Positions 2,100-53,017 of a stretch of 64,000 nucleotides of DNA are shown piece by piece. The stretch comes from a virus. The stretch is from positions 1 through 64,000 of the IMG/VR virus record IMGVR_UViG_3300036761_003567; one strand, 5' to 3'. The position numbers and the translations under genes were made by a program. Below the pieces are notes generated by a model, which worked only from the letters and a program-made list of their open reading frames with translations, did no database searches and was not told the DNA's origin. Position 1 is the stretch's first letter, and the number at the start of each line of letters is the position of its first letter.

Positions 2100-5021
2100 T
2101 TACTGTGGAACAACCACTCCGCCGGCGATCAGAACTTCCTGCGCGGTGAAGCTCTGGTCCGTCCTCATGACCACGAGGTTGAGGACGACGAATTCTGCCG
2201 CGCGCGTCGGCTTGATGAATATCGAAACCCAGAGCTCGTTGCGGTCGATCCTCTCCGGCGTGTTGTTGGTGTCGTCGCAGACGACCTTGAAGCCGTACAG
2301 GCCGCGCCGGGCCTGGACGTCCGCCAGGAGCGGCTGGGAGACGTCGACCACCTGCGCCCGGGTGAACCTGTCGTTCGGCTCGAACACGAAGTTCCGGAGC
2401 GTCCTGACCAGGATCTTCTTGAGGTAGATCAGCAGCATCCGGACGTTGACCCGATCCAGCGCGCTCGCCTTGCGCTGCAGCGTCCTCTGGCCCCAGACCG
2501 TGATCCCATCCTGCGTGAAGTTCACGATCGGGTTGACCGCGTTCCCGCTCCCGTAGAGCAGGTTCCGCTCACCGAGAGTCGTGTTGTACTCGACGTCGAG
2601 CGGGGTCAGCAGGTGGCCGCGGTTGAGGCCCGCCGGAGCGAACCACACTTCCGCGACGTTGGCCGTCTTGGCGTAGACGCCTGCCACGTGGCCCGAGGGC
2701 GGAACCCAGATGTTCTGGCCGGAGAACTGGTCGAAGATCTTCAGCCAGCTGTAGTAGAGGGCGCCGTACGAGGAGTTGATCGCGGTCGAGAGGTCGCTCG
2801 AGAGCATCCCGTTGTGCCACTCGACGACCTGCTGTGGGCGGAGGCCGTAGGGCGGATCGACGATGTAGATCATGTCGCCGCGGGACTCGCACAGCTGGAG
2901 TCCCTGGCCGATGACCGCGCCAGAGCTGATGCCCGGGATCAGCAGGATGTTGGTATCGTACTCGTCCGAGTTCTGGAAGGCGAACAGCCCACTGGAAAGG
3001 GCCGGGTTCCCGATGATGACCCGGTCCAGCTCCGAGCTGAAGGCCGAATCGGTCGGAATTCCGTTTGCCGTACCGTTGGCGCCGCTGGCACGCTCCCACT
3101 GGAAGGTGCGGCGGATAAGAGTGCCGGGGTTCCTGACCTCGAAGGCGATGCCGCCGCTGCCGGTCACGGTGACCGCCGGATCACTCCCGAGGAAGGCCGG
3201 CCGATCCTCGTAATTGTAGAACGAGCTCCCGTTCACGCCACCGATGGCGGAATTCTCGTTCACGACATTGCCGATCCAGCGCTCGTTACTCTCGTCGAAG
3301 CTGATGTTGTCGATGCTGTCCTGCGCGACTCCGGAGCCGTCGACGAGCGTCAGGACGTATTTGCCGACGTCCCCTGCCGACGCGCGGTTGGTATCGATCT
3401 GGAGAGTCAGGTAGGTCCCGTCGATCCAGGTGCCAGGCGACTTTGCCACGACCCAGCCGACGATGTTCTGGAAGTACTCGGTGTCGGTCAGGCACTGCGC
3501 GCTGCCGGGCGCCGTCTCGCAGGAAAGCGGCACAGACGGCGTGATGTTGCCGGGGTCCGGTAGTGACACGCGCGGGTCGCTGAACCCGCGGAAATTGCGG
3601 TAATACGGGTAAGGGATGCCAACCTCCTCGGCGAACCTGAGCGTCTCGATGTTGCTCGCCGAGGCCAGGAGCTGGAGGAGATCATACTGCGTATCGTCGG
3701 CGGTGATGATCGCCACCCTGACATCCCCGTCGGCCACGGTGATGGGGAAGCTCTCGTAATAGCGCATCCCGAGATAGAGCCCGGATGCGTGAATCGCAGC
3801 CGCGATCATCGCAGCCGTGACGTTGGGCCCCACAGGAAGCGAGATGCTGAAGTTATGGACGTTCGTGCCGCTGGTAACGGAGAGCTTGATCCTGTCATCC
3901 GCCGTGGTGATGACGAAGGGGCTGGGCTCGGTGCCCACCAGGCTGCTCCGGGGGATGTCATATGCCCAGAGCGAGGTCCCCACTTCGAGAGCGAACCCCT
4001 CAGTGTCGATGATCTGAATGCGGTGTCCGGCCGTCTCGGTCACGATCTGGGGAATCCCACCGGACTCAATAGCGCGGTACCGCACCGCGCTTGGCGTAGG
4101 AGCTCCAGCGGCCAGATTGAATGCGGTCACGAAGTCCGCGTTCGTGGTGTAGGAAGCGACCGGCATCGTGTAGGGACCGCCGGAGCCACCACCACTGATT
4201 CCCTCGACGGCGACGTCGAACACCCTGTTGTTGGGTGCGACGCTGAAGGTGAAGATGTCCCCGGCCTCGATCGGGCATCCGCCGACCACCAGGACGGCCC
4301 CGGTCAAGCCGGTGGCGTCGGCACCGGAACCGATGGCAAAGGCAGCCGAAGCGCCGACTGGCGCCCCAGTGTCGGTCAGCGTGCCGGTCTGAATAACTGC
4401 ACCGTCGCTGTTCCGGATGATCTGGTAGGTGGCATCCTGGACGCTCGGCGCGCCATAGGAGCCGCCAGGCCCTTCCGTGATCAGGATGATGAAGCTGTCG
4501 TCGACCGCGCCGGTGTAAGTCCCGGTGACGACCAGCGTCGCATTCACCACGCCACAGGAACCCGACGGATCCACGTCCGTGAATTCGGGGGCGGAAACAG
4601 ACGCATCGTGGAATTCGTAAGGAGCGTCCACGGTGCATTCCCGCAGACGAAGGCGACCCAGGTCGATGCCCTGGAAGAGCGGAATGCGGCCGTACCCCTC
4701 GACATTCGCACCGCTCGTGTCGATGCAGATGTCCGAAAGCTCCGTCGGCTGCCCCTGCTCGCATTCGACGCCCACGCGCAGCGTGAACATCTGGTTCCCC
4801 TGCTCGAAATACCCCAGGGCCGCGAAGCCCATGTAGGAATCGAGAATCGGGGTTCCGAAGGTGTTCACCCACTGCTCGGACGTCGACGTGAAGATAGGCC
4901 TGCCCAGCTTCCCTTTCTGGGCCGTGCCGATCATCGCCGGCATCGTAGGACCTGCGGCAGCCGGAAGCAGACTGATGTCGATCTCGCGCGGGAAGACGCC
5001 GGGGGAGAGGAATACGGGCAT
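2100..5021 (-). CDS. contractile tail sheath protein
   Basis: 973 residues. The N-terminus 'MPVFLSPGVFPREID' is the characteristic sheath start (SPGV.E.D), and the C-terminal ~150 residues ('RMLLIYLKKILVRTLRNFVF', 'FEPNDRFTRAQV', 'GLYGFKVVCDDTNN') match the conserved sheath domain of T4 gp18-type proteins. It is much longer than T4 gp18 (about 660 residues); the extra length lies in the middle (about residues 130-500), where Gly/Thr/Ser-rich beta-type sequence suggests surface-exposed inserted domains. The start is supported by AAGGAG about 8 bases upstream. Preceded by a hairpin (5036-5070) and followed by a terminator hairpin, as expected for a highly expressed late gene. Confidence 0.95.
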   Translation of the reverse strand: MPVFLSPGVFPREIDISLLPAAAGPTMPAMIGTAQKGKLGRPIFTSTSEQWVNTFGTPILDSYMGFAALGYFEQGNQMFTLRVGVECEQGQPTELSDICIDTSGANVEGYGRIPLFQGIDLGRLRLRECTVDAPYEFHDASVSAPEFTDVDPSGSCGVVNATLVVTGTYTGAVDDSFIILITEGPGGSYGAPSVQDATYQIIRNSDGAVIQTGTLTDTGAPVGASAAFAIGSGADATGLTGAVLVVGGCPIEAGDIFTFSVAPNNRVFDVAVEGISGGGSGGPYTMPVASYTTNADFVTAFNLAAGAPTPSAVRYRAIESGGIPQIVTETAGHRIQIIDTEGFALEVGTSLWAYDIPRSSLVGTEPSPFVITTADDRIKLSVTSGTNVHNFSISLPVGPNVTAAMIAAAIHASGLYLGMRYYESFPITVADGDVRVAIITADDTQYDLLQLLASASNIETLRFAEEVGIPYPYYRNFRGFSDPRVSLPDPGNITPSVPLSCETAPGSAQCLTDTEYFQNIVGWVVAKSPGTWIDGTYLTLQIDTNRASAGDVGKYVLTLVDGSGVAQDSIDNISFDESNERWIGNVVNENSAIGGVNGSSFYNYEDRPAFLGSDPAVTVTGSGGIAFEVRNPGTLIRRTFQWERASGANGTANGIPTDSAFSSELDRVIIGNPALSSGLFAFQNSDEYDTNILLIPGISSGAVIGQGLQLCESRGDMIYIVDPPYGLRPQQVVEWHNGMLSSDLSTAINSSYGALYYSWLKIFDQFSGQNIWVPPSGHVAGVYAKTANVAEVWFAPAGLNRGHLLTPLDVEYNTTLGERNLLYGSGNAVNPIVNFTQDGITVWGQRTLQRKASALDRVNVRMLLIYLKKILVRTLRNFVFEPNDRFTRAQVVDVSQPLLADVQARRGLYGFKVVCDDTNNTPERIDRNELWVSIFIKPTRAAEFVVLNLVVMRTDQSFTAQEVLIAGGVVVPQ

Positions 5022-5035
5022 TTGCGCGCTCCTTA

Positions 5036-5070
5036 TTAGCCTTCTGATTATATTTGATCAGAGCGGCTAA
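5036..5070. promoter_or_regulatory. inverted repeat just upstream of the sheath Shine-Dalgarno
   Basis: TTAGCC...TCTGAT / ATCAGA...GGCTAA form an interrupted hairpin occupying the gap between the 90-residue gene and the sheath gene. The sheath ribosome-binding site (AAGGAG) abuts its base. It may be a terminator, an RNA processing site or a 5' stabiliser of the sheath mRNA. Confidence 0.4.
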
Positions 5071-5084
5071 TGGAGCTAATTCCC

Positions 5085-5357
5085 CTACGTCGTAGCAGTC
5101 CCGATGATTTTGATGTGTCCGCGCATCTGGAGGTTCTTGATCTGATCCAGGTCCAGGAAATTCTTCGGAATCTTTGCGGTGTGCTTCCCGCGGATGGAAA
5201 TGGTCTGCTCGGAAATAAAGAAGTCGCTCCCCGGCGGCCTCTGGCGGATGGAGACGACCTGGCTCCTGGGATTATAGAGCGTCACCAGGGGTCCTGCGGA
5301 AACGGCCTCCTTCTGCTGCTTCACTTCGCGCTGGCTAAGCGGCCTTGTCTTGCTCAT
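5085..5357 (-). CDS. hypothetical virion-region protein
   Basis: 90 residues, basic N-terminus (MSKTRPLSQREVKQQKEAV) followed by a beta-rich segment with 'NPRSQVVSIRQRPPGSDFF' and 'SIRGKHTAKIP'. No family recognised. Position between the tail-completion-like gene and the sheath gene suggests a small structural or tail-assembly protein. A Shine-Dalgarno (GGAGG) precedes the start. Confidence 0.6.
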   Translation of the reverse strand: MSKTRPLSQREVKQQKEAVSAGPLVTLYNPRSQVVSIRQRPPGSDFFISEQTISIRGKHTAKIPKNFLDLDQIKNLQMRGHIKIIGTATT

Positions 5358-5366
5358 GGCTCCCTC

Positions 5367-6179
5367 CTAAGTCCCAAAGAGAGATACGTGACCCAGTCGT
5401 GCCTGTATGACCTCGCCCGTCTCGTCCTGTATCGTATGTACTTTCCCGAGGATCGCAGGCACCAACTTTTCTGGAAGCGGGAGCCAGGCTTCCGCGGTCA
5501 TGCTTATGTCATACCTCACCTTCGCAATCCTGTCGCGGCCTGCCTCTATTTCGCTGCTGTCCGTATATCCTCCTAACTTCATGATCAGGTTGCCTTGCAA
5601 GAAGGCATCGGCAATATGGATTTCGGCCAGGGGGTCAAACCGAGTCAGGATTTGATAGAGGATGTACTCCGCATCCTGCTTATGCTCTGTCCAATAAGAG
5701 AGCTGATATTCCACCAGGAATTGCCTAGGTCTGTAAGTGAGCGAGAGCCTGGAACCCGGCTTGTCCGCGAATCGCTTCCGGATTCTCCAATAAGGCGGAC
5801 TAAACTTTTCCGCATGGAAGGTCGCGCTTCCCCTGTGGACCGACATGACCGGCAACCCGATGCGACCCTCTTTCAGGTCCTGCTGCCAGACAAGAATGGA
5901 CCTATCACCGCGGGGTATCCGAACGGTCATCTTCTTCACGCCATCTTTCGTCGGAACCGTAATATCAGAAAGCCATTCCTTGATGGCGGCGTCTGTTGTC
6001 TGGAAGCCGATCGGAAGAATGTTCCTGACGTCTTCGACGCCGACGTTGATCTTGTCATAGGCGATAGTCGACCTGCCGGTCAAATCTGGCAGGCGGATCA
6101 AAGGAGAATACTGCGGAGCGTGCTCGGGTGCCCCGGGCGGCTGGTTGGTCCGTGCTCTGAAGTCAAAGTCGTAAAGCAT
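5367..6179 (-). CDS. tail sheath stabilizer / tail completion protein, gp15-like
   Basis: 270 residues. The order of conserved features resembles T4 gp15-type tail completion proteins: 'VPTKDGVKKMTVRIP', a conserved 'GLPVMSVHRGS' after a short spacer, 'YRPRQFLVEYQLSYWTEH', then 'ILYQILTRFDPLAEIHI', meaning a beta-domain that folds on a 'Y.P.P..i.f.l' strand followed by '..ile.il..F.P'. The gene order neck, neck, this gene, sheath parallels T4 13-14-15-18. Overlaps the preceding gene by the start/stop junction at 6177-6181. Identification is by pattern, not by alignment. Confidence 0.6.
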   Translation of the reverse strand: MLYDFDFRARTNQPPGAPEHAPQYSPLIRLPDLTGRSTIAYDKINVGVEDVRNILPIGFQTTDAAIKEWLSDITVPTKDGVKKMTVRIPRGDRSILVWQQDLKEGRIGLPVMSVHRGSATFHAEKFSPPYWRIRKRFADKPGSRLSLTYRPRQFLVEYQLSYWTEHKQDAEYILYQILTRFDPLAEIHIADAFLQGNLIMKLGGYTDSSEIEAGRDRIAKVRYDISMTAEAWLPLPEKLVPAILGKVHTIQDETGEVIQARLGHVSLFGT

Positions 6180-6517
6180 TAGCTTATTCCCTGACCCTTC
6201 AGGATCTTCTTAAGCTCTTCCTTGCTCTGGAGCCTGTTCAGCACCGTCGCGAAGGGCCTCGTGCCCATCACCTCTTCCGTCTTGGCCATCATCGCGACTT
6301 CCGGGTTCGTGGCGGGGACGAAGATGGTCGCCCTGACGGCTTCCTTCTCCGGCCTCGATACGATGAATTCGGGATTTACCTTGTTGAACGAAATCTCCTT
6401 GATATCCTCAACGACTCCTATGGCGGCGGCCCGAGCAATCCCGTCCGCGCGATCGTTCACGTCGCGCCTCAGGTTGGCTTCCAATTCAGCCAGCGACTTG
6501 ACCGGGATCTTTCTCAT
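6179..6517 (-). CDS. hypothetical head-tail region protein
   Basis: 112 residues from ATG at 6517, which overlaps the upstream stop as ATGA; the open frame extends further but that extension overlaps the neighbour. Sequence: 'MRKIPVKSLAELEANLRRDV', an amphipathic helix, then 'EFIVSRPEKEAVRATIFVPA'. It has the size and helix-strand layout of small connector or minor structural proteins, but no family is recognised. Confidence 0.6.
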   Translation of the reverse strand: MRKIPVKSLAELEANLRRDVNDRADGIARAAAIGVVEDIKEISFNKVNPEFIVSRPEKEAVRATIFVPATNPEVAMMAKTEEVMGTRPFATVLNRLQSKEELKKILKGQGIS

Positions 6518-37528: not shown

Positions 37529-38878
37529 GTGGCAGACCCGACTGACCGAGACAAGCAAATCGAGGCGGCCGAGAAGGCCTACCCAGGCCCGAAGGACTTC
37601 GTCCACCTCCATTCTCATTCCGTATTCTCGCCATTGGACGGCCTTCCTGATCCTGAGGATTACGCCAAGGAATGTCAGCTCCGCGGATTCCCTGCTATGG
37701 TCCTGACGGACCACGGCAGCATGGGAGGAATTCCGGATGCCTATCTGGCTGCAAAAAGCGCGAAGGTAAAGTTCATCGCGGGCTGCGAGATCTACTTCAA
37801 CGACAAGCACCTCGAGTGGGCAGAGAAACAGAAGCTCGGTATTTCTATCGGCACCATCAAGGCGCAGGACGCAGAACTACGCGACGAATATGTCCGCAAC
37901 AGGCACGTGACCGTGCTTACGAAGAACATGGCCGGCTACAGGAACCTGGTCATGATGCTCACGAACGCCTGGGAAATCGGGCATTATTACAAGCCCAGGA
38001 TCTGGCTGGACATCATGAAGCAGCACCAGGAAGGTCTAATCATCCTGTCCGGGTGCCTGAATGGCCCTATCTGTCATTATCTCCGGAAGGATAATACGAA
38101 GAAGGCGATGGAGTACATCAAGAAGTTCAAGGACATCTGGGGAGATGACTATTACCTCGAAGTCCAAATGCCTGGTAAGGAAATCCCGGACGGCGTAAAG
38201 ACCTTCATCAAGCTCATGACCATCGCGAAGTCAGTAGGCTTCAAGGCAGTCCTGACGAACGATACGCATTACCTGAGGCGGGAGGACTTCCAGGTCCAGA
38301 AGCTCATGATGGCCATCGACCAGAAGCTGAGGGTCGATGACCCGAATCTCTTCCACGTGAATTCGGACGAGCAGTTCTATAAGACGCGGGCGGAACTAAG
38401 GCAGACTTTCCAGGAACAGGGGTACGCCTATGGCGGACACATTACCCTGAAGGACTTCGAAGCCGCCTGTGATAACGCGCTAGAGGTCGCCCAGAAATGT
38501 GAGGGCTTCAAGCCGGACACGAGCCTGAAGCTTCCGGAAGTGCCCGACGCGGATAAACAGCTCGTCGCCCTGACGCTCCAGGGGCTCCGCCGGATCAATA
38601 AGCATGAAGATGAGGTCTACGTCGCCCGTGCGAAGCGGGAACTCAAGATGATCATCGAGAAGGGCTTCAGCTCTTACTTCCTCATCACGCGGGATCTGAT
38701 CGCCCACTCAAGGAGCCTTGGCTTCGAAGTGGGGCCTGGTAGAGGCAGCGTGGGAGGCTCGCTCGTGGCGTATCTAATCCAAATAACGACGATAGACCCC
38801 ATCGTATTCAAGCTCAATTTTGAAAGGTTCATCAGCCCGTCGCGCGGCGGCAACCTCCTTAGGGTGACCATGTCATGA
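37529..38878 (+). CDS. dnaE: DNA polymerase III alpha subunit, N-terminal piece
   Basis: 449 residues from GTG. PHP domain: 'FVHLHSHSVFSPLDGLPDPE', 'MVLTDHGSMGGI', 'IAGCEIYF' and 'LTNDTHYLRR', with metal-binding residues largely intact, so proofreading-type PHP activity is possible. The start of the polymerase palm follows: 'RAKRELKMIIEKGFSSYFLI', 'VGPGRGSVGGSLVAYLIQIT', 'FERFISPSRGG'. In full DnaE proteins this last segment runs within 10-40 residues into the catalytic PDIDxD motif; here the frame ends instead with LLRVTMS and a stop that overlaps the next gene's ATG. The C-terminal piece is at 41316-43403; 449 + 695 residues equals a normal DnaE length. Active only if the two polypeptides (or RNAs) are joined or assemble. 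Confidence 0.93.
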   Translation: MADPTDRDKQIEAAEKAYPGPKDFVHLHSHSVFSPLDGLPDPEDYAKECQLRGFPAMVLTDHGSMGGIPDAYLAAKSAKVKFIAGCEIYFNDKHLEWAEKQKLGISIGTIKAQDAELRDEYVRNRHVTVLTKNMAGYRNLVMMLTNAWEIGHYYKPRIWLDIMKQHQEGLIILSGCLNGPICHYLRKDNTKKAMEYIKKFKDIWGDDYYLEVQMPGKEIPDGVKTFIKLMTIAKSVGFKAVLTNDTHYLRREDFQVQKLMMAIDQKLRVDDPNLFHVNSDEQFYKTRAELRQTFQEQGYAYGGHITLKDFEAACDNALEVAQKCEGFKPDTSLKLPEVPDADKQLVALTLQGLRRINKHEDEVYVARAKRELKMIIEKGFSSYFLITRDLIAHSRSLGFEVGPGRGSVGGSLVAYLIQITTIDPIVFKLNFERFISPSRGGNLLRVTMS

Positions 38879-39492
38879 CACAGGGTGCCATTGCTCTGAC
38901 ATCCGTGCCCCGAGACGAAATTGTGGCCATCAAGGCCCTCCTGGGTCAGGCCGTATCGACGCTCCGCGTCCTGACGATCCTGATCGGAAGCCCGAAGGAC
39001 TCCCCGAAAGAGAACGCGACCAAGATGGTCGGGCTCCTAGCCGTGTGGCCAGACATCGCGGACGAGTTTGCTGACGTCGTCCTCCAGCGGACCACCGTCC
39101 CAAACAACGCGGGTCAGACGACGCACAAGCTCATGCGCCGGATCGCGGATATCACGCTAGAGCCTCTAAAGGCTGCATTCGACGTCCTCCGCGACAGATA
39201 CAAGGACAGCCCTATCGTCGTCACTACGAACGACGAGCTCAAGACGAAGATCCTTTCGGCGCAATTTCCGACGCCGGAAGGACTGGTAGAGCCATTCGTC
39301 GATCGGGAGACCGACGGGTATCCTGAGGCGACTTCCGGCGTGCAGACCGTCGAGTCCGTCCGGAACGTACGCAGAGCCTATCTGGAAGCCATCGCCCGTG
39401 TCGTCCTCTGGGGGACTAGCAAGGATCCCCTAAAGGCGAACGAGGATGCGAGGCCGGCCTACGACGAGATCATGAAAGAGGTGAGAATATGA
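38875..39492 (+). CDS. hypothetical protein inside the dnaE gap
   Basis: 205 residues, ATGA-coupled to the DnaE N-terminal gene. Helical, with 'EIVAIKALLGQAVSTLRVLT', 'QTTHKLMRRIADITLEPLKA' and a mixed C-terminal half. Typical phage codon use, i.e. not AT-rich like the homing endonuclease. No family recognised. First of three genes occupying the interruption. Confidence 0.65.
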   Translation: MTQGAIALTSVPRDEIVAIKALLGQAVSTLRVLTILIGSPKDSPKENATKMVGLLAVWPDIADEFADVVLQRTTVPNNAGQTTHKLMRRIADITLEPLKAAFDVLRDRYKDSPIVVTTNDELKTKILSAQFPTPEGLVEPFVDRETDGYPEATSGVQTVESVRNVRRAYLEAIARVVLWGTSKDPLKANEDARPAYDEIMKEVRI

Positions 39493-39929
39493 GCTTGAAG
39501 CCGATGATCTATCTGGCTGCCTTCTCGACTACGGGTAAGTCTCCGGTGAATGGGAAGGTGGACACTGGCGTAGCCGTCTGCGTAAAGGCCGAAGACGAGA
39601 CCAGGACGTGGCTTCTGCCATTCTGGTCGGCGACGATGAACCAGGCGGTGCTCATGGGGTTGAGGTTCGGCATCTTGGCGATCAATCCCAGGAACCGCGA
39701 CTTCCTCCAAGTTACCACGGATAGTCAATATCTCGGGAACGTGCTGGCGAAGAAGGGAGACAAGTACGGGTTCAATCCGGACTCGAACGTCGAGCTCATC
39801 AAAGAGGCACGCGACCTTTGCGCTACCGCAAAGGATATGACATGCTTGGTGTGTAAGACTGACGTACTCATCGCCGAGCTCCGTGAGAAGATTCGCGTGC
39901 TCGGCAAGAAGAGGCTGGCGAATGTCTGA
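39489..39929 (+). CDS. RNase H-like fold protein, degenerate
   Basis: 146 residues, coupled to the previous gene. 'IYLAAFSTTGKSPVNGKVDT' + 'GVAVCVKAEDE', 'MNQAVLMGLRFGILAI' and 'FLQVTTDSQYLGNVLAKKGD' follow the RNase HI layout (G-rich strand, 'n..aEl.al..aL', 'i.TDS.Y..n'). The first catalytic Asp and the helix Glu are not obvious; the TDS Asp remains. Possibly structural or inactive. Lies in the gap between dnaE pieces. Confidence 0.5.
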   Translation: MSLKPMIYLAAFSTTGKSPVNGKVDTGVAVCVKAEDETRTWLLPFWSATMNQAVLMGLRFGILAINPRNRDFLQVTTDSQYLGNVLAKKGDKYGFNPDSNVELIKEARDLCATAKDMTCLVCKTDVLIAELREKIRVLGKKRLANV

Positions 39930-40308
39930 TTGGCAGAAGATCGCCGAATTCGCGCGCAAGAAAGTTGCAACGCTTTCCAAGGAGCATGCGACCCGGCTTG
40001 AATTCGAGATCAAGGAAATAGACAAACAGGGCGCGAACGACTACTGGATAAACCTGCTGAAGTCCATGCAGAAGTTCGAAGCGAACACCAACGGCCTCGT
40101 CCTTCCATTCCTCCTGGGCATCACGCCGGTCGACCCGGTCGATTGTGAATATGTTTTCAAAATTGATGAGACTGGTGAAGAAGATGATATTATGCGGCTC
40201 GTGCTAGACAATGGTAAGACAATATCGGTACCATCACGAGCGCTGATTAAGACGATAAATGGACCCATAATCGCGAAAGATTTGAAAGTTGAAGATGAGC
40301 TGACGTAA
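39922..40308 (+). CDS. DnaE-like fragment with Hint-like tail
   Basis: 128 residues (overlaps the previous gene's stop). Residues ~20-72, 'ATRLEFEIKEIDKQGANDYW', 'NTNGLVLPFLLGITPVDP', parallel the DnaE segment RELEMI..KGFSSYF...SLVAYLIQITTIDP of the intact N-terminal gene. The GPGRGS loop is missing, so it cannot be catalytic. From 'VDCEYVFKIDETGEEDD' to 'IIAKDLKVEDELT' the sequence is AT-rich and resembles the 'i..L.nG..i.v.....i.t..G...A.dL...Del' strand pattern of intein/Hint N-terminal domains, but the His of block B is absent. Likely an eroded copy of dnaE/intein carried with the endonuclease insertion. Confidence 0.45.
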   Translation: MSDWQKIAEFARKKVATLSKEHATRLEFEIKEIDKQGANDYWINLLKSMQKFEANTNGLVLPFLLGITPVDPVDCEYVFKIDETGEEDDIMRLVLDNGKTISVPSRALIKTINGPIIAKDLKVEDELT

Positions 40309-41157
40309 AGTTGTCACATGTTTTAAATCTCTCTCTGTCATAACGCCAAAAGAATGGCGTTTTTTTGAGCACCACCGGCGTAATGCGGGTAATTTTCTCT
40401 TGCAAGATAGCCACATTGCGACACCCATGCGGTCTAAATTATTAGGTTTCTTGCCGGATATATATTTAGAATACTTTATTTCAATGATTAGGCGCTTATT
40501 AATCAGTAAATCTGGGACCATGAAGAATTCATTGCACTCTATTTGTAATGGTTCGTATCTTAGCGAGTGGACATCGCCTAATGATGCAAGAAGTTTTACG
40601 GCCTTCGCTTCCAGGGATGACTTAACTCTAAAAAGACCAAATCTGGTACGTATCGTTTGCACACGCGGCGATGTGGCAACGTAGTGCAAAGCGCTTATCT
40701 TTGACAAATGCTTTCTGTAATCGCCATAACGCATGTTGAGCGTGGCAATTCTTTTCCTGTTTGATTTTGGATTTTGAATAGAATACGCAACGCCGTAACG
40801 CTTCCGATGCGTCTTAATTATTCTCTCCCAAACGCCTGGTAGTTGAGTGTTGTGCGTAACGCCCAAATGTTCTTTTAGGGATTGCCGATAACGCGCATAC
40901 CCGGATTTGCTCTGCATGTAGTGCTCAGAGCCGTACCGTGACTTAAAAGTTCGCCTTCTATGGTCATCTATCTGTTTGTATATAGTCCTTTTGTCCTTAC
41001 AAATTCCATGCCTCTTCAAGGCGCGAACAACAGATGAGGTGCCGCATCCGACTCTTTCTGCTATCTGTATCTGTGAGAGGTTTTGGTCGACATACGCGTA
41101 TTTCAGATATGAAGAATTGAGCCTCTCACGCAAAGTTGACGTGGATTTTCTACCCAT
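40234..41157 (-). CDS. homing endonuclease (HTH plus PD-(D/E)XK-type nuclease)
   Basis: 307 residues, antisense to the flanking genes. N-terminal HTH ('QNLSQIQIAERVGCGTSSVV' 'RALKRHG'), a central repeated Tyr/Arg/Lys-rich DNA-binding region ('THRKRYGVAYSIQNPKSNRK') and a C-terminal nuclease with 'SSLEAKAVKLLASLGDVHSL', 'FMVPDLLINKRLIIEIKYS' (PD...ExK). AT-rich versus neighbours. The 3' end overlaps the DnaE-like fragment by 75 bases. Its location in the gap of a fractured dnaE parallels reported 'fractured gene' loci in phage metagenomes, where a free endonuclease lies between split gene halves. No clear Shine-Dalgarno. Confidence 0.75.
   Translation of the reverse strand: MGRKSTSTLRERLNSSYLKYAYVDQNLSQIQIAERVGCGTSSVVRALKRHGICKDKRTIYKQIDDHRRRTFKSRYGSEHYMQSKSGYARYRQSLKEHLGVTHNTQLPGVWERIIKTHRKRYGVAYSIQNPKSNRKRIATLNMRYGDYRKHLSKISALHYVATSPRVQTIRTRFGLFRVKSSLEAKAVKLLASLGDVHSLRYEPLQIECNEFFMVPDLLINKRLIIEIKYSKYISGKKPNNLDRMGVAMWLSCKRKLPALRRWCSKKRHSFGVMTERDLKHVTTLRQLIFNFQIFRDYGSIYRLNQRS
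40342..40366 (+). terminator. intrinsic terminator downstream of the DnaE-like fragment
   Basis: AACGCC-aaaagaat-GGCGTT followed by seven T's, on the plus strand 34 bases after the fragment's stop codon and within the antisense endonuclease coding region (its codons read SKKRHSFG). It would stop transcription from the dnaE-N operon before the dnaE C-terminal gene. Confidence 0.65.
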
Positions 41158-41203
41158 GGGGTATATTTGATGAAGATTGTTAAGATAAACATCATTCGAG
41201 GGA

Positions 41204-41309
41204 ATGTCCGGAAAGTCAGCGGTGGTGCCTATAACGCCAGCGGGATCACGGTCCTACCACAAGTCGGAATCCCGCACCGCGTTGAGTACCACGCTGACCT
41301 TCCGGACAT
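41204..41309 (+). other. long inverted repeat at the dnaE 3' junction
   Basis: ATGTCCGGAAAGTCAGC (41204-41220) pairs with GCTGACCTTCCGGACAT (41293-41309) at 16 of 17 positions. An inner GCGGGAT / ATCCCGC stem (41240-41246 with 41269-41275) lies in the loop. The right arm ends exactly where the dnaE frame resumes (ATA GAT GTG GAT). The repeat has no coding explanation as a palindrome. It is consistent with a splicing-type RNA fold, a translational control element or an endonuclease target scar. Confidence 0.6.
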
Positions 41310-41315
41310 ATAGAT

Positions 41316-43403
41316 GTGGATCTCCAGCCTGCCGCACGCCCCCTTATTAGGCAGTACGCCACAAAGAAATATGGGATGGAGAATGTCTGTAGCGTAGGCC
41401 TCTGGCAGACCTACAACCCAAAGCTCGCCTTGCAGGATGCGGCTCGGGCACTCGGAGCTGACCATCACGAAATCCTGAACATAACCAAGGAGCTTCCGGA
41501 AGACTTCGATGAAATGTCCAAGGAGGACGCACTCAAGGAGTTCGACGAGCTAGCCACTTACTATAAGGCGAATCCACACATCGTCGACATGGCTTATCGG
41601 ATCGTCGGCCGCATCAAGACGCAGGGCCGGCACGCCGGAGGCCTCATCATTTCGTCCGTCCCCATCAGGGAATATGTGCCCCTGATGAAGCTCGGCGGCG
41701 TGGAGTGGACGACGGCCTGGACCGAGGGCAAGAACACGCAGCTCAGCAAATTCGGCTTCGTCAAATTCGACATGCTCGGACTCAAGACGATCCAATACAT
41801 CGCCAACGCCTTGAAGCTCATCGAACAGAACCGCGGCGTCAAGATCGATTGGGAGAAGATCCCGCTGGATGATAAGGATACGCTTGCGCTTGCGGCCAGC
41901 CTGAAGACGGATTCGACGTTCCAATTCGATACGGATCTGGCCAAGAGTATCATCCTCCGCGGCGGCGTCAAGAGCTTTAACGATCTGATGGTCTATACGT
42001 CACTCGGCCGCCCCGGCCCCATGCCGCTTATTGAGAAATACGTAGAGCGGCGTGACGATCCGAAACAGACATGGCGGAATGAAATTCATCCGAAGCTGGC
42101 GGAAATACTTGGAGAAACGTTCGGCGTCTGCGTCTATCAAGAGCAGCTCCAGCAAGTCTGGATCGACGTCTGCGGCTTCACATTCGCGGAGGCAGAAGAG
42201 GCCCGCAAGATCATCGCCAAGAAATGGCAGGACAAGCTACCTGCACTCGGCCAAAAGGTCGTGAAAGGCGCGGTCCGATTGTTGGGCGGCAAGAAGGCGG
42301 AAGAGCTCTGGCAGACCATGGTCACCTTCGGCCGCTACGCCTTCAACATGGCTCACGCGACGGCTTACACTATCATTGCCTACCGGACGCTCTGGCTGAA
42401 GACGCATTACGCCCCGGAATGGTGGGCCGCCGTCATGTCGGACTGCGGTCGGGACAGGCTCGTCCGGTACATCGGGATCGCAAAGTCGGAAGGCGTTCAA
42501 CTGGGGACCCTCGACTGCAGGACGCTCACAGAGAGCTTCACGGTCTCGGGCGACAGAGTGCTGCCAGGCCTCAACCTGGTCAAGGGCATCGGCACGTCCT
42601 CCAAGAAGCTTGCGGAGAACAATGCCGACTACAAGTCCGTAGACGAATTCATCGAGAAGAACGGGAAGGGGCGCATCGTCATGGAGCGCCTCATTAAGCT
42701 AGGCGGCTTCGATAAGATCTTCCGGAACAGGAAGACGCTCTGGCTCTGGTATCTCTGGAAGCACGCCGGCGAGAAGCAGACGAAGGACCTGGTAAAGGCC
42801 ACGTTCGCCTGGCCGGAGAATCGCGTCGTCGCCGAGAGGCAGAAGCAGATCCAGGCCTTCAGAAAGCTTTACCCCAAGAAGAAAGTGCCGCCGAAGCTGG
42901 AGAACTGGAACCCGAAGATCGATCCGACGTTCGAGGATTTCGCCAAGAAGTTCAACGAAGACTTCATGGACCGGGAAATCCTAGCCTTTGAGAAGGCTCA
43001 TCTCGGGTTCTACTGGTCATCTCCTATGAGCCAGTTCGTGCACAAGAACCTGACAATAGCCCAGGCCAAGTACTCGAATAACCTGGAATGCGTCATCGAC
43101 TCTATTACCACGAAAAAGTCCGAGAAGACCAAAAACGAATATCTGAAGCTCACGATTACGGACGGCATCGAGACGGCGCCGCTCGTCGTCTGGTCCGATG
43201 CCTTGTCTGACAAGACGAACGCCGAGGCGCTTGCCGTCGGCGGAGGCATCTCCGTAAAGGTAGCCTGGTCAGACAAGTACAGGAGCTTCTCCATAGCTTC
43301 AGGGTCCATGATCATCCCGCTCATCAAGAAGGGGCTCGAGCCAGACGCGCCGGTTCTACCTGCCCCGGATGAATTAGAGGAAGCTTATGCTGCTGACGAG
43401 TAA
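41316..43403 (+). CDS. dnaE: DNA polymerase III alpha subunit, C-terminal piece
   Basis: 695 residues from a GTG that is the second residue-pair of the catalytic motif (I-D-V-D-L). Fingers/palm: 'GLWQTYNPKLALQDAARALG', 'RIKTQGRHAGGLIIS', 'FVKFDMLGLKTIQY' (third catalytic Asp), 'YTSLGRPGPMPLIEKYVERR', 'VCVYQEQLQQV', 'NMAHATAYTIIAYRTLWLK', then HhH ('GLNLVKGIGTSSKKLAENNA') and OB fold ('VIDSITTKKSEKTKNEYLKL'). Starting at this GTG loses the first catalytic Asp codon (GAT 41313-41315). An alternative ATG at 41170 encodes MKIVKINIIRGNVRKV ... EYHADLPDI and reaches the motif in another frame; 2 extra bases (TA near 41310) separate it from this frame. Real frameshift, assembly error or recoding are open. 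Confidence 0.9.
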   Translation: MDLQPAARPLIRQYATKKYGMENVCSVGLWQTYNPKLALQDAARALGADHHEILNITKELPEDFDEMSKEDALKEFDELATYYKANPHIVDMAYRIVGRIKTQGRHAGGLIISSVPIREYVPLMKLGGVEWTTAWTEGKNTQLSKFGFVKFDMLGLKTIQYIANALKLIEQNRGVKIDWEKIPLDDKDTLALAASLKTDSTFQFDTDLAKSIILRGGVKSFNDLMVYTSLGRPGPMPLIEKYVERRDDPKQTWRNEIHPKLAEILGETFGVCVYQEQLQQVWIDVCGFTFAEAEEARKIIAKKWQDKLPALGQKVVKGAVRLLGGKKAEELWQTMVTFGRYAFNMAHATAYTIIAYRTLWLKTHYAPEWWAAVMSDCGRDRLVRYIGIAKSEGVQLGTLDCRTLTESFTVSGDRVLPGLNLVKGIGTSSKKLAENNADYKSVDEFIEKNGKGRIVMERLIKLGGFDKIFRNRKTLWLWYLWKHAGEKQTKDLVKATFAWPENRVVAERQKQIQAFRKLYPKKKVPPKLENWNPKIDPTFEDFAKKFNEDFMDREILAFEKAHLGFYWSSPMSQFVHKNLTIAQAKYSNNLECVIDSITTKKSEKTKNEYLKLTITDGIETAPLVVWSDALSDKTNAEALAVGGGISVKVAWSDKYRSFSIASGSMIIPLIKKGLEPDAPVLPAPDELEEAYAADE

Positions 43404-43620
43404 GGATGGCATCGCCTGCGATCTATGCGGGAGAGAATACAAGCACAAGTTCTCGTATTACTCTGCGGAATTTACGAAGATCTCGGCCGACGCCGAGAAG
43501 AAGATCACTGGCCCAACGGAAGTGGACAAGAAGTATCTGAACCTGGACATCTGCCAGATCTGCTATGACGGCTTCGCAAAGAAGGTCGTAGAAGTCGCTA
43601 AGGCTAAGGGCATGGCCTAG
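43387..43620 (+). CDS. small zinc-finger protein
   Basis: 77 residues, ATG with GAGGAAG Shine-Dalgarno, overlapping the dnaE end by 17 bases. 'IACDLCGREYKHKF' and 'LDICQICYDGF' form a C4 zinc site with helix between. Probably nucleic-acid or protein binding; unknown partner. Confidence 0.6.
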   Translation: MLLTSKDGIACDLCGREYKHKFSYYSAEFTKISADAEKKITGPTEVDKKYLNLDICQICYDGFAKKVVEVAKAKGMA

Positions 43621-51531: not shown

Positions 51532-51854
51532 GCTACTGTGGAATGCGTTTTCCAGGGTCGCCAGGTCTACTTCAAATGAAAACGTGGTACAGCGCCATCT
51601 GTCGCAAATGTGGAGAGGGCGCGCAGATCTTCGTCTCAAATCCGAGCTGTACTATGGCCTACCTTGGAGAGAAGGATAAGGAGATTCAAGCCTTCCTAGA
51701 GAAGCACTTCGGATGTGAGCTCGAGCTCATCTGGCGGGATGACCAACTGGACGCACTCTTCAATTCGGGCTGGAAAGTCAGCATTCTCCCGGGCGTCTGC
51801 CGTTATTTCCGACCGGAAAGTATTTCATCTCCGTGTCCAAGCACGCCTTCGTAA
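51528..51854 (+). CDS. zinc-binding hypothetical protein
   Basis: 108 residues, ATGA-coupled. 'MKTWYSAICRKCGEGAQIFV' with a further Cys gives a partial zinc site; 'FGCELELIWRDDQLDALFNS' follows. The last ~10 residues overlap the next gene (TAATG junction). Unknown. Confidence 0.5.
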   Translation: MSYCGMRFPGSPGLLQMKTWYSAICRKCGEGAQIFVSNPSCTMAYLGEKDKEIQAFLEKHFGCELELIWRDDQLDALFNSGWKVSILPGVCRYFRPESISSPCPSTPS

Positions 51855-53017
51855 TGTGTCAGTACACGAAGCAGTCCTCTCGTCCGCTCATGGCTGCCTT
51901 CATGGACGACGGGAGTGATGCCGTCAGATCGTACCCCCTGCTTCTCTCTGGCGTCGGTCTCAGCTTGAAGACGGTCTGGGAGAGCGCAAAGGCCATCCTT
52001 GGAGAATTCAAAGGGAGTCCTCTTCCCGCCGTAACGATGAACGACTTCAAAACGGTCCTTGATTTCCTGGACCGCGAATGCAACCTACTGGCGCATCCGT
52101 TTAACGTCTGGGATTTTGGCATCCCGAAGCAGCCGAATTACGGCACGCTGTCCGCCGAGAGGGCAAGGGAGATCTGCGAGAAGCTCGTCCGCGGCGTTGC
52201 CAGCATCCAGCCCACCCCCTGGATGAAGCTGCTTGGAAGAGCCACGCAAGTCTACCACATGCTCCAAAAGCGCGGTCTCATGAATGGCCATCTTCTTACC
52301 TATCCTCGGTATGTCCTCAACACGGTCAGTGGCCGGTCGAAGACGCTGGGTTTCAACGTCCAGGGGACGGACGCATCCTATGACGTGAAGCACCCCGATG
52401 AAGAAAAATCCTATTTCATCCATCTGGACTGGATCTCAGCAGACCTTAAGGCTGGCCAGATCCTGAGCGGGGACGAGCTCCTTGCTGAAGCCTTCAGGAA
52501 GTCCGATCCCTACACCGTCATGGCGAAGGGAGACCTGACCCGGGCAGATTGCAAGGGCATGATGATCCGTGCGCTCTATGAAATGGATCAAGATAGTCCA
52601 GCCCTTCAGTTCTGGCCAGACCTTCAAAAATGGGTCGCGGTCGAAAAAGCCAAGTTGGAAGACAGAGGCTGGACGGAGTCCGTTCTGGGTAGAAGGTTCA
52701 GAATGGCCACAGAAGGCGATCCTCTCCACAATATGAGGAGCGTATTTAACGCCTCGCTCCAGGGGACGGTAGTGCACGCCATGCACAACGCCCTCTGGCA
52801 GATTTACAAAGTGATGCCTGATTGTATCGTGGCGGAGATGCACGACTCGATTACTCTGGCAGCGAACAGGCATGCGATTAAGGAAGTTCTGAATGTCGGC
52901 GTCGAAGCCATGCTCCATCCGTTCAAGGACATACTAGATAGCAATCCGACGTTTCCGCTTCGGATTTACGTCGGCCGTCATTGGAAGAAGTGGAAGCTTT
53001 ACAAGGAAATCCGATGA
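51854..53017 (+). CDS. divergent family-A DNA polymerase-like protein
   Basis: 387 residues from ATG in a TAATG junction (GTG at 51833 also possible). Motif A 'HLDWISADLKAGQILSGDEL' (D-Y-S-q-i-E-l-r type, first Asp kept), motif B 'DLTRADCKGMMIRALYEMD' (R...K kept, the Phe/Tyr pair altered) and motif C 'IVAEMHDSITLAA' (catalytic Asp kept, next residue Ser instead of Glu). There is no 3'-5' exonuclease or 5' nuclease domain. About 190 residues precede motif A. It could be a lesion-bypass, priming or Z-tolerant polymerase; activity is uncertain because several conserved residues differ. Confidence 0.7.
   Translation: MCQYTKQSSRPLMAAFMDDGSDAVRSYPLLLSGVGLSLKTVWESAKAILGEFKGSPLPAVTMNDFKTVLDFLDRECNLLAHPFNVWDFGIPKQPNYGTLSAERAREICEKLVRGVASIQPTPWMKLLGRATQVYHMLQKRGLMNGHLLTYPRYVLNTVSGRSKTLGFNVQGTDASYDVKHPDEEKSYFIHLDWISADLKAGQILSGDELLAEAFRKSDPYTVMAKGDLTRADCKGMMIRALYEMDQDSPALQFWPDLQKWVAVEKAKLEDRGWTESVLGRRFRMATEGDPLHNMRSVFNASLQGTVVHAMHNALWQIYKVMPDCIVAEMHDSITLAANRHAIKEVLNVGVEAMLHPFKDILDSNPTFPLRIYVGRHWKKWKLYKEIR

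Follow-up and report, generated by a model that had tools for sequence, protein, structure and literature searches.

A two-gene phage DnaE broken by an apparently decayed split intein and by a stop codon at its active site

How a phage may obtain a working DNA polymerase III alpha subunit (DnaE) from genes that lie in pieces is the question raised by positions 37529-43403 of the window, a 64,000-nucleotide (nt) stretch of viral DNA that covers positions 1 to 64,000 of record IMGVR_UViG_3300036761_003567. The parent record is linear, 107 kb long and may be a genome fragment. An earlier note on this DNA had described an N-terminal and a C-terminal dnaE piece separated by about 2.4 kb and had named fragment assembly, splicing and an intact copy elsewhere as ways to a polymerase. 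The locus was compared here with relatives, given as L-numbered contigs, which were collected by searching viral contigs with the C-terminal piece (F), a shorter piece upstream of it (D) and the end of the N-terminal piece (A); genomes were searched too, and all sequences compared are metagenomic. In intact relatives D and F belong to a single open reading frame (ORF), a long second polymerase gene termed DEF, which in the window (W) is split into D, E and F. It is judged fairly probable that E and F are made as one protein, EF, by hairpin-driven hopping of the ribosome over the stop codon of E, and that no splicing is involved when A, D and EF come together.

The two-gene DnaE and the element in its second gene

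A (37529-38878, plus strand) is 449 residues long, terminates in FERFISPSRGGNLLRVTMS before its stop codon and holds the PHP domain (Pfam, E = 2e-39), a DNA_pol3_alpha match and the start of the palm with the GPGRGS loop. F (41310-43403, plus strand) holds the catalytic DVD, the end of the palm, the fingers (Pfam finger, E = 1.1e-36; DNA_pol3_alpha, E = 9e-24), HHH_6 and the OB part, and is 69-70% identical in L003 and L004; it was listed from GTG 41316 and is open from 41310. The DnaE family C domains PHP, DNA_pol3_alpha, DNA_pol3_finger and HHH_6 are all over the cut-off across A and F. A covers positions 42-439 and F positions 448-1029 of one phage DnaE family, phrog_405, and the AlphaFold model of A clearly matches PolIII alpha (2hpi, Z 29.8). 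Both pieces, with their ORFs and coordinates, had therefore been identified correctly as parts of dnaE. The gap of about 2.4 kb is also real: in ordinary full-length phage DnaE (FERFLD-xTRx-xMPDIDTD) the end points of A and F adjoin without a gap in the alignment, and misassembly was ruled out by the recurrence of the layout in independent contigs.

The earlier description of a broken polymerase gene with an endonuclease between its parts was correct, but the separation of A from the C-terminal piece is mostly an older two-gene architecture that needs no endonuclease. A ends in SPSRGGxMLNVKM in no fewer than 20 related contigs, the longest of 408 kb, and DEF is there a separate gene, placed mostly after two or more small genes, whose D-like beginning runs uninterrupted into F (for example ...GLVIAYLMGICSVDPIAANIKHNISYQPDFPDIDIDFLPNAR... 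in L028). Intact DEF repeats the palm start and also holds the catalytic DxD and the fingers, and its junction is clean (DPI-x-IPH-...-FPDIDIDF). Its AlphaFold model (pLDDT 70), good for residues 144-609, matches PolIII alpha (4iqj, Z 21.6). The C-terminal tail of A is conserved as SPSRGGxLLxVxM, with the same gene end in about 20 relatives. On these comparisons A and DEF are read as an old two-subunit DnaE. The GPGRGS loop occurs only in A and the catalytic DVD only in F, and the same division is found in intact relatives, so that GPGRGS and the catalytic PDxDxD do not occur here in one polypeptide. Because A has the loop and lacks the catalytic Asps, and D lacks the loop, the active site would be formed jointly by A and DEF. 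No description of a split phage DnaE with a PHP subunit was found in the literature, subscription papers lying outside the coverage. In G001, the record of L147, A (143802-145265, plus strand) and DEF (85322-87919, minus strand) lie about 56 kb apart on opposite strands, so that operon linkage is unnecessary.

Given an ancestral two-gene DnaE, the 2.4-kb gap is made up of two genes of the old operon, B and C, plus a younger element inside DEF. Of three small genes placed in the gap by the earlier note, B and C were confirmed, while the third, D, is polymerase and begins DEF. The N-terminal 73 codons of D (39922-40140, plus strand; full ORF 39922-40308) hold a second palm start without the GPGRGS loop and are the true start of the second polymerase gene: they are matched by a model of intact DEF at E = 3.6e-26 and by phrog_405 positions 352-431 at E = 0.002, align with the palm start of normal DnaE and are fused to F in relatives.

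DEF lies in pieces in seven contigs, the carriers W, L003, L004, L016, L019, L114 and L172 (the L114 contig starts downstream of D, which is not visible there), and is broken twice, between D and E by the element and between E and F by a stop codon. In each carrier with D visible, D continues beyond DPI(K) for roughly 55 more residues, its tail, before the stop, and E has some 32 residues of its own followed by (G)IPHxxEYxxDFPD(I/V). As DPI-x-x-IPH is continuous in intact relatives, the tails sit exactly at the insertion point, and by this alignment the invading element broke the second gene and did not part A from F.

The D tail, D' (40141-40308, plus strand; D residues 74-128), resembles intein block B (LDNGxxIxVPSxAxIKTxxGPIxAKDLxxGDEL). 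A hidden Markov model (HMM) built from five D tails matches the N-half of a split intein in F of L173 at E = 8.6e-6 among 7,476 ORFs searched, and also matches the L172 tail. That N-half passes the curated model TIGR01445, and the L173 C-half ends HN|S. No intein model in Pfam or NCBIfam and no PDB sequence matched D' or the corresponding part of E (E') directly, the link being made only via the L173 split intein; in L172 alone, E' begins like the L173 C-half (MKIKSIT). Every carrier lacks the residues that splicing requires, in alignments of five to seven: position 1 has no conserved C, S or T (C, A, A, K, E...), D' has no Cys1, block A is absent, and there is no block B TxxH, no terminal Asn or Gln and no C, S or T at +1. 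The earlier observation that no complete split intein is present thus holds, and by its sequence the element is classed as a decayed split intein.

Other inteins occur in F of relatives. The genuine split intein of L173 (G009:C1:303000-309500; 2055-2348 and 4748-6370) fractures F at GHPGPMD|C with its C-half about 2.4 kb downstream; no nearer relative of the window's decayed intein was found. A further site lies at FGRYxFN, occupied in cis in L029 and L020/L022; in L172 and L174 it holds a split N-half, with the remainder of F far downstream.

An antisense endonuclease-like gene in the gap had likewise been recognised. This putative homing endonuclease (40234-41157, minus strand) combines a helix-turn-helix (HTH) part, DUF7487 (PF24308, 39.1 bits against a cut-off of 27) and a TnsA-like/PD-(D/E)XK region at E = 0.00098, below the cut-off, and a search of phage isolates at E 1e-5 gave no relative of it. 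Three of the seven carriers, namely W, L003 (antisense, 52% identical) and L172, have a free-standing endonuclease gene between D and E; in L172 an unrelated gene (4383-5879, minus strand), REase_MTES_1575-like with a zinc-finger-like part, stands there on the sense strand. Two kinds of endonuclease thus use the same D/E site. The endonuclease is absent from L004, where D and E overlap as ATGA, and from L016 and L019, where they are spaced by 86 nt and 56 nt; the D/E split thus persists independently of it.

The stop codon and the hairpin before the active site

E (41170-41313, plus strand), overlooked earlier together with its stop and its hairpin, consists of an apparently decayed intein C-half (codons 1-32) and the polymerase segment GIPHRVEYHADLPDI, and ends at TAG 41311-41313 directly before F. 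Its last residues, VEYHADLPDI, are polymerase sequence, and it is protein-coding, as W and L004 differ over its first 32 codons 5, 0 and 17 times at codon positions 1, 2 and 3. F has no usable start before the catalytic DVD, and initiation at GTG 41316 would lose the first Asp.

In all seven carriers the stop of E falls directly before the catalytic DxD or one or two codons earlier. The junctions read GAC ATA TAG ATG in W, GAT ATA TAG ATA in L004, GAT ATA TAG ATG in L003, GAT GTT TGA CAT in L016, GAC ATA TGA ATT GAT in L019, TTC CCA TGA GCG TGA TGT in L114 and CCT GAT TAG CTG GGA CAT in L172, which makes five distinct sequences among seven independent carriers, with GAYATATAGAT common to W, L003 and L004. 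Relative to E, the frame of F is +2 in W, L004 and L003, +1 in L016, L114 and L172, and 0 in L019, so coding resumes in a different frame in six carriers and in the same frame only in L019. A fixed -1 frameshift as a general rule was rejected, as the E-to-F frame varies between relatives.

In W the sequence ATATA (41308-41312, plus strand) offers a proposed take-off codon AUA at 41308-41310 and a landing AUA at 41310-41312 around the UAG. In W, L003 and L004 an exact PD(I/V)DxD would be restored if the ribosome slipped forward by 2 nt, from AUA to the AUA that overlaps it, as it would be by 6 nt from AUA to AUU in L019, 10 nt from GAU to GAC in L172 and 1 nt at GUU UGA C in L016. Take-off and landing codons encode the same amino acid in W, L003, L004, L019 and L172. 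In these same five carriers no ATG, GTG or TTG retains both catalytic Asps, yet the codons are conserved, which points to their translation by a non-standard route.

From about codon 12 to the stop, E can fold into one long RNA hairpin in all seven carriers (in W 41204-41309, plus strand, its 3' base at the stop codon). Against synonymous-codon shuffles its z was -3.7 in W, -7.1 in L172 and -3.5, -5.2, -4.3, -6.6 and -4.2 in the others, and seven intact relatives gave -0.2 to -1.3, the hairpin being absent there. Among 90 control windows of F genes none was at or below -3.4. In the alignment of six carriers 86.8% of the cells pair, with 13 double changes, neither value being reached in 500 shuffles, and pairing drops to 29-49% when the structures are slid. 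By these comparisons the hairpin is under selection beyond coding.

Routes from the pieces to a polymerase

From the two-gene architecture, the element, the hairpin with its selection, the stop and the codons matched at most junctions, all seen in the sequence, we infer hopping, docking and assembly into one active polymerase by the following course. A split-intein-plus-endonuclease element has invaded DEF, and its intein no longer has the residues for splicing; what is left of it, D' and E', would serve as docking tails on D and EF. The ribosome would translate E and halt at the codon directly before the active site, the long hairpin refolding behind it would pull it forward over the stop, and re-pairing on the matching codon (in W from AUA to AUA, +2 nt) would give exactly DLPDI-DVDL. 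A, D and EF would then assemble non-covalently. The fused EF peptide would be VEYHADLPDIDVDLQPAAR, with the diagnostic stretch ...EYHADLPDIDVDLQPAAR; at the W junction a -1 shift would instead give ...DLPDIIDVDL... and an own start Met-DVDL. Taken more broadly, the locus has an even chance of being a mobile cassette that works without RNA or protein splicing and combines a decayed split intein, interchangeable homing endonucleases and a hairpin-driven stop-hop exactly at the polymerase active site, by which the host gene would stay functional and which would vary in length (+1, +2, +6 and +10 nt) and include a natural in-frame stop-hop in L019.

Several observations weigh against stop-hopping and splicing-free assembly. 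The take-off and landing codons of L114 are unmatched, L016 allows only a prfB-like +1 re-pairing, and in both of them an in-frame start codon precedes the catalytic Asps (TTG in L114, ATG in L016). The hairpins could instead serve translational coupling. The HMM of E' against intein C-halves was not significant and not above decoys, D was not placed on the PolIII palm in the structure comparison, the DEF model falls below pLDDT 50 at the junction (residues 84-102), and the window record may be incomplete.

The main rival is reinitiation of F at a near-cognate codon, an unlikely explanation in which termination at the E stop is followed by a non-standard start (AUA or AUU; AUG/UUG in L016/L114) and the hairpin couples F to E. 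The palm would then be interrupted just ahead of the catalytic Asp, and its parts would be joined non-covalently. The E stop and the first codon of F do overlap or adjoin, suitable codons are at hand in L016 (ATG-TTT-GAC), L019 (AUU) and W, L003 and L004 (AUA), and hairpins over intergenic starts are a known translational coupling device. No convincing Shine-Dalgarno sequence precedes F, however, and L172 has no near-cognate codon directly at the junction (GAC follows TGG). Reinitiation also gives no reason for the last codon of E to recur just before the Asp, and it would interrupt a beta strand of the active site.

Continued splicing of the split intein by some unusual chemistry, which would join D covalently to EF, is quite improbable: D' is homologous to a split-intein half and the insertion falls precisely where extein residues meet in intact relatives, but catalytic residues and block A are missing in the alignments and the E/F stop would stay unexplained. 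Just as improbable is a decaying locus in which DEF is a pseudogene and the genome is copied by a host polymerase or by the PolA-like protein at 51833-53017. One gene with several breaks would suit it, as would the PolA-like ORF itself (plus strand, 394 residues, short, with a partial family A polymerase match at E = 1.3e-6 that is below the Pfam cut-off); no family B polymerase was found in the search for other polymerases. Decay is contradicted by the conservation of A, D, E and F as proteins across carriers and by a hairpin selected beyond coding. Removal of the insert by a self-splicing RNA intron, suggested by the endonuclease in the gap, is the least probable of all, as cmscan against Rfam, with E values up to 10 admitted, gave neither a group I nor a group II intron, D' and E' are conserved as protein, and the extein codons GIPH...DLPDI precede the stop within E, so that the stop would remain after removal of the insert. 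As to the three ways named at the outset, splicing is thus disfavoured by the lack of catalytic residues and of an Rfam intron, no other A, D, F or dnaE was found in the 107-kb record, which is linear and may be a fragment, and fragment assembly together with ribosome hopping fits best.

Proven cases of natural translational bypassing are, to our knowledge, very few, mainly T4 gene 60 and yeast mitochondria, and synthetic stop-hops were reportedly seen in constructs by Weiss et al. in 1987. T4 gene 60 has a stop right after its take-off codon, and the ribosome is driven to a matched codon by stem-loops that refold behind it (PMC11194080). The review of Atkins et al. 2016 describes synthetic stop-hops, in which matched codons flank a stop, and knows of no natural in-frame example (PMC5009743). 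The bypassed insert of T4 has been proposed to derive from a degenerate intron (PMC5009743, PMC11194080, PMC2988022). As with T4 gene 60 and mobA in the split topoisomerase gene 39/60, endonuclease invasion would here have split a replication gene, and the immediate stop after the take-off codon and the 5' stem-loop within coding sequence are shared; a landing codon that matches in amino acid is present in W, L003, L004, L019 and L172, but not in L114, and L016 is prfB-like. Unlike T4 gene 60, the gap is 1-10 nt (50 in T4), the hairpin is of about 105 nt, the hop length varies among relatives, the remnant is a split intein and not an intron, and the gene is DnaE. The L016 junction GUU UGA C resembles the prfB +1 frameshift, and AUA UGA AUU in L019 has the pattern of a stop-hop. 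An invariant Arg in a basic stretch at E codon 14 (41209-41211), at the same codon in most carriers and 33 residues before the stop, stands at a distance that resembles the KKYK nascent-peptide signal of T4 gene 60; the Arg codon also lies in the hairpin arm.

With the fractured genes of marine metagenomes and phages the locus shares intein-related halves that end D and begin E, and an endonuclease gene between them; it differs in intein halves without splicing residues and in the extra stop and hairpin inside the C-terminal extein. Aeromonas phage 25 gp43A/B (DNA polymerase) and Aeh1 NrdA are split phage enzymes that reassemble and are active (PMC2988022). They are similarly split near an endonuclease, although that polymerase is of family B and no hairpin or recoding was described there. 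The seven related genes with five junctions form a natural mutant series, varying in hop length, codon match and hairpin, which allows a direct test of how a 5' hairpin may push ribosomes forward. The locus would also offer a case of an intein that stays in an essential gene after losing its splicing, and of a group of phages with two proteins sharing the DnaE palm.

Neighbouring genes and minor observations

B (38875-39492, plus strand) is coupled to A, has genes at the same place in relatives and showed no family match in searches of Pfam and PHROG models. C (39489-39929, plus strand) has a weak RNase H-like match (Pfam RNase_H, E = 0.18, below the cut-off). A terminator proposed at 40342-40361 could not be upheld, being not clearly above chance (4 found, 2.4 +/- 1.5 expected), and a promoter scan of the gap was also near chance. 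Two matches from the search with E, L036 and L037, were discarded as chance in unrelated genes.

A itself is interrupted in two relatives, in G008 (63264-66998, minus strand), with a 1275-residue frame, and in G009 (298043-300828, plus strand), with a 1.4-kb gap near the palm; both interruptions are probably further inteins. Directly after F, a small CxxC protein (DGIxCDxCG; 43387-43620 of the window, plus strand) is encoded, and it is kept beside F in relatives, among them L028, L030, L031 and L032.

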